Position numbers and translations under genes: made by a program. The notes under the pieces are model-generated. The model searched no databases, was not told the origin of the DNA, and worked only from the letters and a program-made list of their open reading frames with translations. Below are positions 6,540 to 12,225 of a DNA stretch of 32,259 nucleotides, in pieces (within the stretch, counting starts at the first letter, position 1; every line of letters starts with the position of its first letter). Location: positions 1 through 32,259 of the forward strand of contig NZ_JACUTY010000018.1 in assembly GCF_014859555.1 (NCBI RefSeq). Reading direction: 5' to 3'. The stretch is from Thiomicrospira sp. (GTDB lineage: Bacteria > Pseudomonadota > Gammaproteobacteria > Thiomicrospirales > Thiomicrospiraceae).

Positions 6540-7631
6540 ATGGGAATTAAATGCGGAATTGTGGGTTTACCAAACGTGGGCAAATCCACTTTATTTAATG
6601 CCTTAACCAACGCCGGTATTGATGCGGCTAACTACCCATTTTGTACTATCGAACCGAATGTTGGCATCGTACCCGTGCCGGACGCGCGTCAAGATAAATT
6701 GGCTGAAATTGTCAAACCCGAACGTGTTTTATCGGCCACGATGGAGTTTGTGGATATTGCAGGCCTGGTAGAAGGCGCTTCAAAAGGTGAAGGCTTAGGC
6801 AATAAATTCCTCGCAACTATCCGTGAAACCGACGCGATTACCCAAGTCGTGCGTTGTTTTGAAAATGATGACATCGTGCATGTTGCGGGCAAAGTTGACC
6901 CATTATCGGATATTGATATTATCAATACCGAATTGGTGTTAGCCGATATGGAATCGATTGATAAAGCCATTCAGAAAGTCCAGCGTATTGCCAAAAGCGG
7001 CAATAAAGAAGCCGCCGCGCGTTTAGCCGTACTAGAAAAAGTTTCCGCCGAAATTGCCGAAGGAAAATTGGTTCGTAATGTCGATTTAACTAAAGACGAG
7101 CAAGCTGAACTTTACGACCTGCACTTGTTAACCATCAAGCCCATGATGTATATCGCCAACGTTAACGAAGATGGATTCGAAAATAACCCATTTTTGGACG
7201 CGGTTTGCAAGATAGCGGAAGAGCAGGGTGCGGTAGTCGTGCCAGTTTGTGCTGCGATTGAATCCGAAATTGCCGAGTTGGATGACGAAGACAAAATGGA
7301 TTTCTTACAGGGTATGGGCTTAGAAGAGCCTGGTCTTAACCGCGTAATCCGTGCTGGCTACAGTCTATTAGGCCTACAGACCTACTTTACCGCCGGTGTG
7401 AAAGAAGTACGCGCCTGGACAGTCAAAGTCGGCGCTACCGCCCCTCAGGCGGCAGGAGTGATTCATACCGATTTCGAGAAAGGCTTTATCCGTGCCGAAG
7501 TCACCGCCTATGAAGACTTTGTTAAATACAACGGCGAGCAAGGTGCAAAAGAAGCCGGTAAGTTACGCCTAGAAGGCAAAGAATATATCGTGCAAGATGG
7601 CGACGTCATGCATTTCCGTTTTAACGTATAA
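6540..7631 (+). CDS. ychF: Redox-regulated ATPase/GTPase YchF (OLA1 family)
   Basis: YchF is a conserved Obg-family P-loop ATPase that associates with ribosomes and affects translation and oxidative-stress responses. The 363 residues are full length. The P-loop GLPNVGKST is at 9-17, the switch II region [21 protein letters not shown] follows near residue 72, and a C-terminal TGS domain ends in [18 protein letters not shown] 6540 follows TAAGGAG. It is the last gene of the rplY-pth-ychF run. Confidence 0.97.
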
Positions 7632-7639
7632 CATCTGCA

Positions 7640-7657
7640 ACCACCAGGCCTGGTGGT
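7640..7657. repeat. Iterated palindrome, 18-bp version
   Basis: ACCACCAGGCCTGGTGGT is a perfect 18-bp palindrome just after the ychF stop. There is no T-run, so it is not an ordinary terminator. The same 18-mer recurs at 27754-27771. Confidence 0.9.
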
Positions 7658-7687
7658 GGCAAAAGCCATCAGCCCTGCATAAAAGTT

Positions 7688-7715
7688 TTGACAAAATCCA
7701 AAACTTCCTTATAAT
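7688..7715 (+). promoter_or_regulatory. Sigma-70 promoter for tRNA-Met
   Basis: Consensus TTGACA (7688-7693) and consensus TATAAT (7710-7715) with a 16-bp spacer, 13 bp before the tRNA. Confidence 0.88.
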
Positions 7716-7728
7716 ACGCGCATCTTTT

Positions 7729-7805
7729 GGCTACATAGCTCAGTTGGTTAGAGCACATCACTCATAATGATGGGGTCCCAGGTTCGAATCCCGGTGTAGC
7801 CACCA
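7729..7805 (+). tRNA. tRNA-Met (anticodon CAT, elongator type); integration site
   Basis: The acceptor arm pairs GGCTACA (7729-7735) with TGTAGCC (7795-7801). The anticodon stem-loop is CATCA-CTCATAA-TGATG. The CCA end is encoded at 7803-7805. The standard first acceptor pair and the sequence style point to the elongator rather than the initiator tRNA. The last 15 bases recur at 9529-9543, showing that the 3' end has been used as an attachment site. Confidence 0.96.
7791..7805. repeat. Attachment-site direct repeat, tRNA copy
   Basis: CCGGTGTAGCCACCA forms the tRNA-Met 3' end. An identical 15-mer lies at 9529-9543, 1.7 kb downstream and outside any tRNA. Recombination of tyrosine integrases at a tRNA 3' end leaves this pattern. 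Confidence 0.8.
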
Positions 7806-7818
7806 AACATTAAAATCA

Positions 7819-7840
7819 ACCCGCTTCATGCGGGTTTTTT
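7819..7840 (+). terminator. Terminator after tRNA-Met
   Basis: ACCCGC (7819-7824) pairs with GCGGGT (7830-7835) around a 5-base loop, with T residues to 7840. A similar terminator follows the second attachment-site copy at about 9557-9581. Confidence 0.85.
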
Positions 7841-7935
7841 GTGCCTAAAATCAACGGTTTAGCGCCACTCCTATCTAATTCCCTGTTTCATGGTGTTGCA
7901 CTTATTACCACTAAATTGCAAAATGGAGTGGGGTG

Positions 7936-7991
7936 AAAAGTGGGGTAAATTGATTTTTACCCCCTGCTGGAATAATTTCTACCCCACTTTT
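7936..7991. repeat. 12-bp inverted repeat, probable integrase arm-type sites
   Basis: AAAAGTGGGGTA (7936-7947) is repeated in inverted form as TACCCCACTTTT (7980-7991). A partial TTTTTACCCC lies between them, and GAGTGGGGTG just before. GTGGGGTA-type repeats between a tRNA and an integrase start are what arm-type integrase or excisionase sites look like. The function is inferred. Confidence 0.5.
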
Positions 7992-8027
7992 AGTGTTCTA
8001 AGCCAATAAATCAGGGCACCCAAGACA

Positions 8028-8129
8028 ATGAATCTGACGGATACAGCAATTAGAAAAGCAAAAGCGATGGGTAAGACTCAAAAAATGCCAGATGGTAAAG
8101 GTTTGACAGTCCAGTTCATTTATAAATGA
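8028..8129 (+). pseudogene. Integrase N-terminal remnant (P4-type tyrosine recombinase)
   Basis: ATG 8028 opens 33 codons beginning MNLTDTAIRKAKAMGKTQKM and ending at TGA 8127-8129. This matches the N-terminal DUF4102-like start of P4-type integrases (LTDtaIrkAK followed by a DGkGL motif). The remaining 350 or so residues expected for the family are missing. Its place directly after tRNA-Met and the arm-type repeats is where such an integrase would sit. A C-terminal remnant lies beyond the second attachment-site copy. Confidence 0.72.
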
Positions 8130-8144
8130 CAGGGTCATTGTAGA

Positions 8145-8175
8145 TAAAAAAACCGCCTTTAATTGGTGGTTTTTT
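8145..8175. terminator. Bidirectional terminator-like hairpin
   Basis: An A-run, then AACCGCC (8151-8157) pairing with GGTGGTT (8165-8171), then a T-run. It could stop transcription on either strand, insulating the abiF cassette from the integrase remnant. Confidence 0.6.
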
Positions 8176-8301
8176 ATTGAAGCCATTGAAATGCTTGTTT
8201 AGGTCAAACTTTTGACTTGGTTTACTTATTATCGCTCTACAGTCTGGATTCATACATGAAGTGCAAAACTTTAAGTGAACATTCAACGTTTCCGTTTTTT
8301 G

Positions 8302-8342
8302 GTGCTTGACGAAATTGATATGCAGAAACCCTTTAAAACAGG
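8302..8342. repeat. 41-bp direct repeat, left copy flanking the abiF cassette
   Basis: This 41-bp block matches 9464-9504 with two visible mismatches and contains the shared core TTGATATGCAGAAACCC. Weaker similarity extends upstream to about 8246 (compare GGATTCATACATGAAG with GGATTCAAACATGAGG at about 9390). The pair brackets the ncRNA and the AbiF-like gene. Confidence 0.8.
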
Positions 8343-8371
8343 TTGACTAATATCTATATCGTCACTAGAAT
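8343..8371 (+). promoter_or_regulatory. Promoter of the AbiF-associated RNA
   Basis: TTGACT at 8343-8348 and TAGAAT at 8366-8371 with an optimal 17-bp spacer. Transcription would start near 8378, a few bases before the structured RNA. Confidence 0.65.
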
Positions 8372-8377
8372 TATAGT

Positions 8378-8449
8378 CAACATACCCGCCACACTTCCTG
8401 CCTTCGGTCAGGGATCTGTTAAGTCAGAAGTGCAAAAGGCGGGTTTTTT
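8378..8449 (+). ncRNA. Structured small RNA upstream of abiF (candidate abiF RNA)
   Basis: A promoter, about 65-70 nt of strongly pairing sequence and a T-run mark a discrete RNA. The outer stem ACCCGCC (8384-8390) pairs with GGCGGGT (8438-8444). After an asymmetric internal loop containing CAAAA (8433-8437), CACTTC (8392-8397) pairs with GAAGTG (8427-8432). Inside, CTG (8398-8400) pairs with CAG (8409-8411) around C-TTCG-G, a stable UUCG-type loop. Bases 8412-8426 are left unpaired and free to contact a protein or another RNA. It ends 27 nt before the AbiF-like start codon. AbiF genes are known to be accompanied by a conserved RNA motif. The alternative is a plain terminator or leader hairpin, but the internal structure is more elaborate than a terminator needs. 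Confidence 0.62.
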
Positions 8450-8476
8450 GTATCCAGCATTTATCGAAAAGAGATC

Positions 8477-9349
8477 ATGACCCCTCGTACTACCTTTATC
8501 AAGCCTGCGCTAACACCTGAGAAACTGCTCGAAAAATATATTCAGCAGGGATTGGTTGTTGCTGAGGCGGAATATGAGCTAGCTTTACGATACTTTCGAT
8601 TTGTAGGTCCTTATCGTCTCAAAGGCTATCTTCACCATAGAATTGATTCACAAACAAAACAGCTAACTGACGAGTTAAGCTTCGACACACTGCGCCAATA
8701 TTATGAGTTTGATCGTGAGTTAAGGTTGTTAGTGATTGGTGCGATTGACCGTATTGAGGTTGCTGTAAGAACGAGTATGTCGAATGTTTTAAGCTTAAAG
8801 CATGGTGCGCACTGGTTTTTGAATCCCTCAATTTTTAATGAGACACGAGAATGGTCACATGAAAAGTTGGTTAAAACACTAACGCAAGATACGTCTAAGG
8901 CTCACAATCGTCAATTTGTAAGTCATTATTTCAAGCACTATGAATCTCCTGATCTCCCCCCTAGCTGGGCGATAAGTGAAATCGTGTCATTTGGTTTTTG
9001 GTCAAAAACCTATTCAGTGTTAAATCAGTCAAATGATCGCAAGGCTATTGCAATGAAGTTTAAAATTGACCAGCCAGAAGTGTTTCGTTCTTGGCTGCAT
9101 GCCTTAACCGTGTTAAGAAATCATGCCGCACACCATAGCCAAATTCTTTACGCACCAATTCGAGTAAAACCGAGCCATTACAAGCGAAAAGATATTCATT
9201 TCACCGCACCTGAAAGCTTTGAAAGCTTGTCAATTATTTTAGAGTATTTTTTGAGCCAAATTGCACTGGGCGAAAGTTGGGACATTCAACTTTCTCAGCT
9301 TTTTGTTCGCTACCCAGCCGTTTCAAATCAGGACTTAATGAAGTATTGA
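8477..9349 (+). CDS. AbiF/AbiD-like abortive infection protein (Abi_2, HEPN)
   Basis: The 290-residue protein has the Abi_2 layout. An N-terminal segment near residues 11-50 has the family spacing, a central helix contains ELRLLVIGAIDRIEVAVR (81-98), and the C-terminal half carries the HEPN ribonuclease motif R-X4-H as R214-N-H-A-A-H219. In the family, HEPN proteins cleave RNA, and AbiF/AbiD proteins give abortive phage resistance. They have been proposed as ancestors of Cas13. ATG 8477 follows AAAAGAGA. No protein antitoxin is adjacent; the upstream structured RNA is the likely partner. The cassette lies inside a degraded tRNA-Met island between direct repeats. The family call is strong; activity and phage target are inferred. 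Confidence 0.85.
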   Translation: MTPRTTFIKPALTPEKLLEKYIQQGLVVAEAEYELALRYFRFVGPYRLKGYLHHRIDSQTKQLTDELSFDTLRQYYEFDRELRLLVIGAIDRIEVAVRTSMSNVLSLKHGAHWFLNPSIFNETREWSHEKLVKTLTQDTSKAHNRQFVSHYFKHYESPDLPPSWAISEIVSFGFWSKTYSVLNQSNDRKAIAMKFKIDQPEVFRSWLHALTVLRNHAAHHSQILYAPIRVKPSHYKRKDIHFTAPESFESLSIILEYFLSQIALGESWDIQLSQLFVRYPAVSNQDLMKY

Positions 9350-9367
9350 TTTGGGTTATGTCGGGGT

Positions 9368-9404
9368 CTCATGTTCGGGTCTCAAACTGGGATTCAAACA
9401 TGAG
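9368..9404. repeat. 8-bp inverted repeat after abiF
   Basis: CTCATGTT (9368-9375) and AACATGAG (9397-9404) can form a stem with a 21-nt loop just after the abiF stop. There is no T-run. Its function is unknown. Confidence 0.4.
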
Positions 9405-9463
9405 GTACAAAATGGTTAGTGAATGTGCACAGTTGCGCTTCTATTTTTTACGTGATTTAATAC

Positions 9464-9504
9464 GTGCTTGAAGAAATTGATATGCAGAAACCCTTTAAAA
9501 TAGG
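9464..9504. repeat. 41-bp direct repeat, right copy flanking the abiF cassette
   Basis: Near-identical to 8302-8342, in the same orientation, with two mismatches. See the left copy. Confidence 0.8.
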
Positions 9505-9528
9505 GGGTTTAGAGATAAAGTTAGGAAG

Positions 9529-9543
9529 CCGGTGTAGCCACCA
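9529..9543. repeat. Attachment-site direct repeat, distal copy
   Basis: CCGGTGTAGCCACCA is identical to the tRNA-Met 3' end (7791-7805) but is not part of a tRNA, since no acceptor partner or anticodon arm precedes it. It marks the right edge of a 1.7-kb inserted segment carrying the integrase start, ncRNA and abiF. Confidence 0.8.
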
Positions 9544-9556
9544 TATCTTTAAAAAA

Positions 9557-9581
9557 AGCCCGTCTTATACGGGCTTTTTTA
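9557..9581 (+). terminator. Terminator-like hairpin after the distal attachment site
   Basis: AAGCCCGT and ACGGGCTT form the stem around a short loop, followed by T residues. Its position relative to the attachment sequence mirrors the terminator after tRNA-Met, so it may be the original tRNA terminator displaced by the insertion. Confidence 0.75.
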
Positions 9582-9600
9582 TTGCTAAAATTCAACGACT

Positions 9601-10041
9601 TACGTTGCAGGGCTAAAGTGGTCACAAGTCGATTTTGAACAACGAATGATTACGATTGAAGCCGAAGAGATGAAAAAAAGGCGAGAGTTCCTGATTCCAC
9701 TCAGTGATCAAGCGATTGGTATTTTGGAAGAGCTTCAACCGCTCACGGCTCACAGTTCCTTTGTATTCCATTCACCGTATGGCACGGGCAAACCAATTTC
9801 ACGCGATAGTTTGAGTAATGCGCTAACAAGAAACGGTGTTACCGAGATCAGTCCACATGGCATGAGACATACAGCAAGCACCTTGTTGCATGAAAAAGAA
9901 TTTAACAGCGATGCAATTGAGCTGCAATTGAGTCATGTGATTTCAGGGGTGAGGGGTGTTTATAACAAGGCGCAATACATCGAGCAGCGCAAGCAAATGA
10001 TGCAGTCTTGGTCGGATTTTGTATATGCATTGGCAGGCTGA
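9601..10041 (+). pseudogene. Integrase C-terminal remnant (tyrosine recombinase)
   Basis: The reading opens without a proper start around 9601 (VAGLKWSQVDFEQR) and continues through ATG 9646 to the stop at 10041. It carries the catalytic half of a P4-type integrase: SPHGMRHTAST with the H-x-x-R pair, the LSHV histidine, and YNKAQYIEQRKQMMQSW around the tyrosine nucleophile. The N-terminal DNA-binding domains and the first catalytic arginine region are missing, so it should be inactive. It lies outside the 1.7-kb abiF segment, so either two elements were stacked at this tRNA or one integrase was split and rearranged. Confidence 0.85.
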
Positions 10042-10105
10042 CTTTTTTGAAAGGTGCTTGAATATAGTTTAATATTCTATAAAAACGTAAACTATTGGTT
10101 GTCAA

Positions 10106-10903
10106 ATGTCTTCAAAATTAAATGATCTTTTAAAGATAGTTACGCCGGGCGCTTTTGTGCTTCAGTCTTGGCTGACTGAACAAGGCATAAGTAGGCAACT
10201 TGCAAACAAGTATGTTGAAAGTGGTTGGTTGAATCGAGTGAGTTCTGGCGTCTATGTAAGACCTGGTAAGCTTGCTAGTTGGTTTGATGCGCTAGCCGCT
10301 GTATCGCAACAAACGGACGTTTCAATCAGCTTGGCGGGGCTCTCCAGCTTAACCTATCAAGGTCGTGCTCACTACCTTACATTTAACGAGAAAGAAGTTT
10401 GGTTATCGACTGAATCAAAGGCAAAGCTTCCTTTGTGGTTAAAGCATTTTTCTCAACTCGAATCTCCAGACTTAGACCCAAAGCAACCAGCGTTAAGCTT
10501 TGTGCAATATAACGCATTCGATAATGTTTCCGATGCTGATTTTATAGATGTTGATGTTAACGGGGTTAAAGTAAAAGCAAGTCGCCCAGAATTGGCTGGA
10601 TTTGAATTACTTGAGCTGGTGCCTAATCAAATATCATTCGAGCATGCCGCACATTTGTTTGAAGGCTTAGTCAATTTGAGTCCTCGAAAAGTGCAGTCAA
10701 TCCTAGAGCGAAGTCACGCAGTCAAAACAAACCGACTCTATCTATTTCTTGCTCATTATTATAATCATGACTGGTTAAAGCGAGTTGACGAGAGCAGGGT
10801 GCGTTTAGGGGTGGGTAAACGCCAGATTGTTAAAGGCGGCAAGTTAGATAAAGCCTATGAAATCACAGTCCCATCAATATTTTCAGTAGGTTTAATTCAT
10901 TAA
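10106..10903 (+). CDS. Orphan AbiEi-family antitoxin
   Basis: The 265-residue protein resembles AbiEi antitoxins of type IV toxin-antitoxin systems. An N-terminal winged helix (about residues 5-55, including YVESGWLNRVSSGVYVRPG) is followed by the AbiEi_3 domain and the C-terminal signature GKRQIVKGGKLDKAYEITVP. In the family, AbiEi represses its own promoter and neutralises the nucleotidyltransferase toxin AbiEii encoded next to it. No AbiEii follows here; an AAA ATPase does. The last residues after ITVP differ from what I remember of the family, so the 3' end may have been altered when the toxin was lost. ATG 10106 is preceded by an AT-rich stretch with no clear ribosome binding site. Confidence 0.8.
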   Translation: MSSKLNDLLKIVTPGAFVLQSWLTEQGISRQLANKYVESGWLNRVSSGVYVRPGKLASWFDALAAVSQQTDVSISLAGLSSLTYQGRAHYLTFNEKEVWLSTESKAKLPLWLKHFSQLESPDLDPKQPALSFVQYNAFDNVSDADFIDVDVNGVKVKASRPELAGFELLELVPNQISFEHAAHLFEGLVNLSPRKVQSILERSHAVKTNRLYLFLAHYYNHDWLKRVDESRVRLGVGKRQIVKGGKLDKAYEITVPSIFSVGLIH

Positions 10904-10915
10904 TTTAATAATAGA

Positions 10916-10929
10916 GTATAAATTTATAC
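10916..10929. promoter_or_regulatory. 14-bp perfect palindrome, possible operator
   Basis: GTATAAATTTATAC lies 13 bp after the AbiEi stop, in the AT-rich gap before the ATPase gene. It could be an operator or part of a promoter; nothing in the sequence decides which. Confidence 0.4.
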
Positions 10930-10944
10930 CTAAATTGAATACAA

Positions 10945-10980
10945 TTAACAAAATTTGTTAACTAATGTATATTTTGTTAA
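10945..10980. promoter_or_regulatory. TTAACAAA inverted repeat plus third half-site, probable operator
   Basis: TTAACAAA (10945-10952) and TTTGTTAA (10954-10961) form an 8-bp inverted repeat around one base, and a third TTTGTTAA lies at 10973-10980, directly before the ribosome binding site of the ATPase gene. Three identical half-sites in 36 bp suggest binding of a dimeric repressor. AbiEi-type winged-helix proteins are known to bind repeats near their own genes. Confidence 0.5.
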
Positions 10981-10991
10981 AGGTGAGTTTT

Positions 10992-12182
10992 ATGGATCCA
11001 CGTTACAATCCCTTTGCGCCAGGCGCAGGAACACCACCACCGGAATTAGCAGGTCGTGACGATATTATTGAGCGCGCTACGATTTCATTGCATCGTATTG
11101 CAGCAGGTCGTGCAGCACGAAGCGTGGTGTTGTATGGTCTGCGTGGAGTCGGTAAAACAGTATTACTGCATAAACTCACTGATCTAGCTGAGGCAGAGGG
11201 TTATCTGTCTGTGGTGATTGAAGCGCCAGAAGATCGATCTTTGCCGGCAATGTTGGGTCCGGCATTACGTACGGCTTTAATTAAGATGAGTAAGCTCAAT
11301 CAAGCCAAGGCTGTGATGGTAGCGTCTCTTAGTCAAGCGAAGAGTGCATTGGCCGGTTTTATTAAAGCAGCGAAAGTTCGCTTTGATGATGTTGAAGTCA
11401 ACATCGACTTTGATTTTGAAGAAGGTTTGGCAGATAGTGGTGACTTTGAAAGCGACCTAACCGACTTGATTGTGACTGTTGGAGAATCCGCCAAACATCA
11501 TAAAAAGCCGATTGTGTTGGTTATTGATGAATTGCAATATGTTCCAGAGGAACAATTATCTGCCTTGATCACAGCGTTGCACCGTGCGAGTCAAAAGCAA
11601 TTGCCGATTACCTTGGTTGGAGCGGGTCTGCCTCAGTTGCTTGGTCAAATGGGTAAAGCCAAATCCTACGCAGAACGCCTGTTTGAGTTCGTATCCATTG
11701 ATGCACTTGATAACGAATCCGCAAAGCAAGCCATTCAAATTCCGCTGGAGCATGAATCTACCCAAATTACGGATGACGCGATTGACGAAATTATTGCTCA
11801 AACAAAAGGCTATCCCTATTTTATTCAGGAGTGGGGGAAACATGTTTGGGATTTAGCCGAGTCTTCACCTATCCAAAAAAAGGATGCATTAAATGCAACG
11901 GATGTGGCGTTATCAGAATTGGATGACAGTTTTTTTAGAGTTCGGTTTGATCGTTTAACTCCTGCTGAAAAACGCTATATGCGCGCGATGGCCGAACTTG
12001 GCGAAGGGCTACATCGTTCCAGTGATATTTCTGAGCTACTGGGGAAAGGCGCATCAACCGTAGCACCCATTCGAGCAAGGCTGATTCTCAAAGGGATGAT
12101 CTATAGCCCATCTCATGGTGATACGGCTTTTACTGTGCCCTTGTTTGATGGGTTTATGAAGCGGATTATGCCGGAGTTTTAG
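10992..12182 (+). CDS. AAA-family ATPase with C-terminal winged helix (Orc/Cdc6-like fold)
   Basis: This is a 396-residue P-loop ATPase. Walker A is GLRGVGKT at residues 49-56 and Walker B is VLVIDELQ near residue 175. The sensor-type LPITLVGAGLPQL follows, and the C-terminal region near 310-380 looks like a winged helix. I chose ATG 10992 (MDPRYNPFAPGAG) because AGGTGAG lies 4 bp before it; an in-frame ATG nine codons upstream lacks a site. ATPases of this type are widespread and often sit in accessory DNA, but a specific role is not known to me. It follows the orphan AbiEi gene by 88 bp and may form a module with it. Confidence 0.75.
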   Translation: MDPRYNPFAPGAGTPPPELAGRDDIIERATISLHRIAAGRAARSVVLYGLRGVGKTVLLHKLTDLAEAEGYLSVVIEAPEDRSLPAMLGPALRTALIKMSKLNQAKAVMVASLSQAKSALAGFIKAAKVRFDDVEVNIDFDFEEGLADSGDFESDLTDLIVTVGESAKHHKKPIVLVIDELQYVPEEQLSALITALHRASQKQLPITLVGAGLPQLLGQMGKAKSYAERLFEFVSIDALDNESAKQAIQIPLEHESTQITDDAIDEIIAQTKGYPYFIQEWGKHVWDLAESSPIQKKDALNATDVALSELDDSFFRVRFDRLTPAEKRYMRAMAELGEGLHRSSDISELLGKGASTVAPIRARLILKGMIYSPSHGDTAFTVPLFDGFMKRIMPEF

Positions 12183-12225
12183 TAGTAGCTGACTTTTAAG
12201 CTCTGTTGACATTATTGTTTAGAAT

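Follow-up and report, generated by a model that had tools for sequence, protein, structure and literature searches.

The locus described here raises the question of what a small structured RNA does when it lies directly in front of a HEPN toxin gene with no obvious protein antitoxin ORF adjoining it. In the 2.1-Mb genome of a sulfur-oxidising, Thiomicrospira-like host, a sigma-70-like promoter is followed by a structured RNA with its own terminator and then by an Abi_2/AbiD-F HEPN gene. The whole 32,259-nucleotide stretch that was analysed is referred to as the window, and its features are listed in Table 1. The locus very probably encodes a type III-like system, in which an AbiF-type toxin is paired with an antitoxin RNA, on a small mobile cassette at a tRNA-Met site. 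Systems of this kind have already been published (PMC12373285; PMC12165695; review PMC12737573), so the candidate defence system suggested in an earlier note on this DNA does not form a new class. Within the open-access literature searched, the new element is the enlarged architecture of the RNA, which is confined to one toxin clade with an altered active-site neighbourhood. It is also new that RF03085 misses this enlarged abiF RNA at its cut-off.

Insertion and gene order at the tRNA-Met site

An exact insertion lies between two copies of the tRNA-Met 3' end, which places the cassette in a tRNA island, as the earlier note had held. By blastn, the insertion is absent at the tRNA-Met site of five congeners (G001, G002, G005, G007 and G008), where tRNA-Met abuts the sequence found to the right of window position 9543; in G003, a 1.5-kb abiF insertion is bounded by the same kind of repeats. 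Judged from these sequence comparisons, the insertion is a small mobile cassette. No complete integrase was found within its 1,738 bp. Positions 8028-8129 hold a 33-aa Arm-DNA-bind-like start that falls below the cut-off (E = 0.011), and an integrase C-terminal piece lies at 9646-10041, beyond the right repeat.

Inside the insertion, the RNA-abiF unit is flanked by direct repeats of 41 nt (8302-8342 and 9464-9504, 95% identical), and a copy related to them occurs downstream of abiF in L155. Further to the right, positions 10106-12182 hold a gene for an AbiEi_3-type antitoxin-like protein and, after it, one for an AAA ATPase; among the genes scanned, none was recognised as an AbiEii toxin. A counterpart of 10902-12183 with 88% identity adjoins tRNA-Met in G008 (L139) without the abiF cassette, and the tRNA-Met site therefore looks like a defence hot spot.

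Table 1. Coordinates of the features of the RNA-abiF locus in the window
Feature	Position	Strand	Evidence
tRNA-Met(CAT)	7729-7805	+	ARAGORN
Left repeat copy CCGGTGTAGCCACCA, last 15 nt of tRNA-Met	7791-7805	+	Repeat search, blastn
Right repeat copy CCGGTGTAGCCACCA, 15 nt	9529-9543	+	Repeat search, blastn
1,738-bp insertion with RNA-abiF cassette	7806-9543		blastn against relatives' tRNA-Met loci
Sigma-70-like promoter TTGACT-17-TAGAAT	8343-8371	+	12 nt 5' of RNA outer stem
Enlarged abiF-type RNA (candidate antitoxin), three-way junction	8378-8449	+	R3 model, covariation
Outer stem 5' arm ACCCGCC, partner 8438-8444 GGCGGGT	8384-8390	+	Covariation, R3 model
Inner stem 5' arm CACTT, partner 8428-8432 AAGTG	8392-8396	+	Covariation
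Hairpin A, CCUGCC-UUCG-GUCAGG	8397-8412	+	Covarying stem, invariant UUCG loop
Hairpin B, CUG-UUAAGU-CAG	8416-8427	+	Fold, covariation
3' bulge CAAAA, inner/outer stem boundary	8433-8437	+	Invariant in enlarged form
abiF/abiD (Abi_2) HEPN ribonuclease toxin (putative), 290 aa	8477-9349	+	PF07751, PADLOC AbiD, 8vz6
HEPN catalytic motif R214-N-H-A-A-H219	9116-9133	+	Aligned to PbAbiF R210/H215
Q222-I-L224, clade-specific residues	9140-9148	+	Comparison with 63 relatives

The promoter matches the consensus at 10 of 12 positions. Promoter-like sites are unremarkable on their own, as three were found where shuffles of the region led to an expectation of 4.4. A promoter with 10/12 matches stands exactly 12 nt 5' of the outer stem in each of the five closest loci (the window, L004, L005, L008 and L009); L057 carries TATAAT 11 nt 5' of its outer stem, and L059 has no promoter before the enlarged RNA. 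The T-run of the window RNA ends at 8449, and the abiF ATG begins at 8477. Because the intervening 27-nt gap holds no plus-strand promoter-like site, abiF is most likely expressed by readthrough, as is the case in C. difficile. The earlier note had read the promoter, this 27-nt spacing, the 290-residue Abi_2 protein with R214 and H219, and the lack of a protein antitoxin beside the gene in the same way, and all of these hold.

An enlarged form of the abiF RNA

Folded with three flanking bases, the RNA folds better than shuffles (z = -2.8). The nested stems proposed in the earlier note are borne out by covariation of the outer and inner stems, and its UUCG-type loop is the cUUCGg of hairpin A (UUCG at 8403-8406). 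The RNA measures 72 nt, however, not 65-70 nt, and the 15-nt segment that had been taken as unpaired contains hairpin B, in which CUG (8416-8418) pairs with CAG (8425-8427) in six of six aligned members. The 7-bp outer stem, together with the T-run at 8444-8449, is likely an intrinsic terminator as well. The 5-bp inner stem reads CACGT/ACGTG in L009 and L057, a compensatory change from U-A to G-C, and the CAAAA bulge occupies the position of the 3' bulge in the RF03085 consensus. Relative to the short form, both stems and the bulge between them are retained, and the 11-nt loop gives way to an apical part of 29-33 nt with two hairpins. The window locus carries a single RNA unit.

Covariation is present in all four helices of an alignment of six sequences, with two-sided changes at 8 of 21 pairs, and paired cells amount to 99.2% versus 31-45% in slid controls. 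As the structure was derived from the same six sequences, the stronger test is the held-out covariance model R3, which was built only from L008, L009, L057 and L059 and left out the window and its nearest relatives. On the window, R3 recovered the full 74-nt architecture at 90.6 bits, the next best site reaching 17.4. Covariance support, the lack of which the earlier note had named as a refutation, is thus present as strong covariation together with a conserved place 5' of Abi_2 genes.

Searches against Rfam gave a different outcome. At the gathering threshold, a search of the whole window returned no match for the RNA at 8378-8449, and a search at E<=10 on a 1.6-kb stretch also missed it. With an 84-nt query, RF03085 was the top family, at 19.0 bits over 8385-8444 against a gathering cut-off of 37, so the covariance search suggested in the earlier note did not recognise the RNA at that level. 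The alignment is in the right register, and the two RNAs share, in the same order, a 6-bp CCCGCC/GGCGGG outer stem, a one-base 5' bulge A, an inner stem, a 3' bulge starting with CA and a T-run, as well as a place directly 5' of an Abi_2 gene (27 nt before the ATG here, and in all clade members). They differ in the apical part, which in the window is about two dozen nucleotides longer and forms two hairpins: 32 nt of the window RNA stand for eight loop positions, and the short (about 11-nt) GCCUCUC-type apical loop is absent. The window RNA falls short of the cut-off because it is an enlarged variant. By the Rfam criterion it is no member; from the alignment, it looks like RF03085 with a bigger head. 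Applied at its cut-off, RF03085 undercounts AbiF/RNA systems, and AbiF with its RNA is the proposed root of Cas13.

A covariance model of the short form (R1, from 16 abiF RNAs of ~40 nt) matched at the gene 5' end in 24 of 29 held-out Abi_2 loci at the phylum level. It scored the window RNA at 21.6 bits versus up to 20.5 for plain terminators in the window; given that these nearly equal it, R1 by itself is no proof of kinship. A scan of 369 genomes of the class with the enlarged-form model found no second strong locus. Its other matches scored 25-30 bits; G326:C21 and G175:C262 are short-form abiF RNAs, and the remainder, only some of which were inspected, look like plain terminators. Exact-pattern matches at L060-L063 were rejected as chance, since they lack both the remainder of the RNA and an Abi_2-like ORF downstream. 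In plasmids and E. coli genomes, blastn found no similar RNA besides two short marginal Rhizobium pieces. Linkage counts were taken from the covariance model because a simple stem finder gave a few false calls within coding sequence (e.g., L102, L103, L106 and L047).

The putative AbiF toxin and the clade with the enlarged RNA

The protein matches PF07751 at 153.6 bits (cut-off 25.6) and is assigned to AbiD by PADLOC (E = 5.7e-52). The PDB holds one sequence relative of it, 8vz6, PbAbiF with its antitoxin RNA (E = 8e-29), and this homology settles the fold. The arginine, asparagine and histidine of the R-polar-xxx-H motif are invariant across the enlarged-RNA clade; AbiF_Cd of C. difficile has RNQCAH in place of the RNHAAH of the window. 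R210/H215 of PbAbiF and R202/H207 of AbiF_Cd are required for activity (PMC12373285), and C. difficile AbiF mutated at R202/H207 loses toxicity (PMC12373285). By analogy, the window protein would be a toxic RNase. Position 222 is Q in the enlarged-RNA clade versus R in 63 of 63 others, and position 224 is L versus W in 95% of those 63. These residues, 3 and 5 positions past H219, may form an adapted RNA contact.

In related genomes, most genes for Abi_2 homologues are immediately preceded by a small RNA, a placement conserved across Pseudomonadota, and RF03085 itself passes in four relatives. By size, these RNAs form a series, from an 11-14-nt loop through a single apical hairpin (L038, L043, L045, L019 and others) to the enlarged two-hairpin form. 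The enlarged form was found at seven distinct loci, each with the RNA 5' of abiF. The closest relatives that carry it share 48-82% protein identity with the window: 82% in T. microaerophila (L004/L007), about 60% in L008 and L009 of the same family, and 48-49% in L057/L058 and L059 from two IMG/VR sources. The enlarged RNA is also present in a Thiomicrospira MAG (L005), where abiF is split over two frames. A tree built from 53 Abi_2 proteins places the six that go with enlarged RNAs in one clade on a long branch (SH-aLRT 100). Variation of the antitoxin RNA is growth of its apical part, from a short loop to a single hairpin to a two-hairpin three-way junction, and the largest form is confined to one protein clade, which has lost the arginine that all others have next to the active site. 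As the correlation between RNA and protein lies along a single branch, it counts as one event and is no proof.

Since the apical part and residues 222/224 set this clade apart from other family members, the RNA may inhibit its toxin in a different way. It is a rather doubtful extension that the two-hairpin head and Q222/L224 have co-evolved into a toxin-antitoxin interface with a specificity of its own, in which the head might sense a phage product that releases the RNA. The large and short forms offer a natural variant pair for asking which part of the RNA is responsible for inhibition and whether each toxin recognises its cognate RNA exclusively.

Several further loci deserve mention. At L005 2501-3191 (L158; MAG UBA5634), abiF is broken while the RNA and promoter are intact, possibly through an assembly error; an intact RNA beside a broken abiF would fit an RNA that does no harm in the absence of the toxin. 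L055, L128 and L129 have, 5' of the Abi_2 gene, an RNA-like hairpin whose 5' half is of the CTCCTCT or CCCTCTG type; it has no R1 match and may be another abiF RNA subfamily. A distant Abi_2 locus, L119 (reverse strand, from base 1444), has an RNA with the enlarged-form signature CCACAC...GTGCAAAAGG and only one apical hairpin, possibly an intermediate or a convergence.

Proposed mechanism and its alternatives

In the proposed mechanism, an RNA of ~72 nt would be transcribed from the one promoter, the outer-stem terminator would halt most transcripts, and rare readthrough would yield the abiF mRNA. An AbiF HEPN homodimer would bind the free RNA, which would mask R214/H219 and keep the RNase silent. 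The trigger would be a drop of RNA relative to protein, through phage host shut-off or loss of the cassette; the freed AbiF would then cleave cellular RNA and stop growth, which would either limit the spread of phage or keep the element in its host. The basis in sequence comprises the RNA structure, its covariation and position, the terminator shape, the HEPN motif, PbAbiF homology, clade-wide linkage and the mobile insertion; binding, neutralisation, RNase toxicity and phage triggering would follow by analogy with AbiF_Cd-RCd22 and PbAbiF. The corresponding RNA of C. difficile binds AbiF directly and neutralises it both in cis and in trans (PMC12373285). The earlier note's choice of the RNA as the likely partner agrees with the homology of the protein to characterised AbiF toxins with RNA antitoxins (PMC12373285).

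Alternatively, though this is unlikely, the RNA could be merely a cis-acting leader, a terminator or attenuator opened by a phage or stress signal, with no direct inhibition in trans. Such a leader would accord with a terminator in the outer stem, with a gap before abiF devoid of a separate promoter-like site, and with the control of AbiD1 by a structured 5' UTR, in the form cited in PMC12373285. A terminator would, however, need neither the two additional hairpins, which covary, nor the invariant CAAAA bulge; the form of the RNA follows the protein clade, with residues beside the active site changing along; and characterised relatives bind and act in trans (PMC12373285). With the RNA as antitoxin, an attenuator role in cis probably coexists with the antitoxin role, as in C. 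difficile (PMC12373285).

AbiD/F is the proposed ancestor of the Cas13 HEPN domains (PMC12165695; PMC12737573), and the RNA might accordingly be imagined as a Cas13-like guide that steers the HEPN nuclease to target RNAs. This is highly improbable because a free variable segment is absent, two conserved hairpins filling the loop region. Moreover, no repeat-spacer array was found at 7600-10200, and the 290-aa protein has only one Abi_2 domain, whereas type VI CRISPR-Cas13 has two HEPN domains and a CRISPR array. That the stem-loop is an upstream transcript's terminator, linked to abiF by chance, has next to no probability: terminators of such shape are common (those of the window reach 20.5 bits with R1), yet the held-out R3 score for the whole architecture, the covariation, the presence of this RNA before abiF at 7/7 distinct loci of the clade and the fixed promoter spacing refute it.

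Among known systems, type III toxin-antitoxin systems (ToxIN, TenpIN and CptIN) share the order of promoter, RNA, terminator and toxin gene, a likeness of sequence anatomy only; by published account, the toxin and antitoxin structures are unlike (PMC12373285). In classical type III systems the antitoxin is repeated in tandem, whereas the window has a single three-way junction. PbAbiF-AbiFr from a Prevotellaceae bacterium (8vz6, compared at the protein level) shares a structured RNA partner and Abi_2 HEPN homology over residues 2-239 with the catalytic R/H aligned. It differs in that PbAbiF, like the rest of the family, has R/W where the window has Q222/L224, and in that two hairpins replace the short loop here. 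AbiF_Cd-RCd22 of the C. difficile phi027 prophage (PMC12373285) likewise has one promoter, a terminator-ended structured RNA and an Abi_2 gene. RCd22, however, contains two abiF motifs and a separate terminator, whereas the window has a single larger RNA with its outer stem as the terminator, and the cassette lies in a tRNA-Met insertion with no recognisable prophage. Two copies of an abiF-type RNA 5' of one Abi_2 gene, like RCd22, were observed at L024 2469-2614 and L122 1133-1439.
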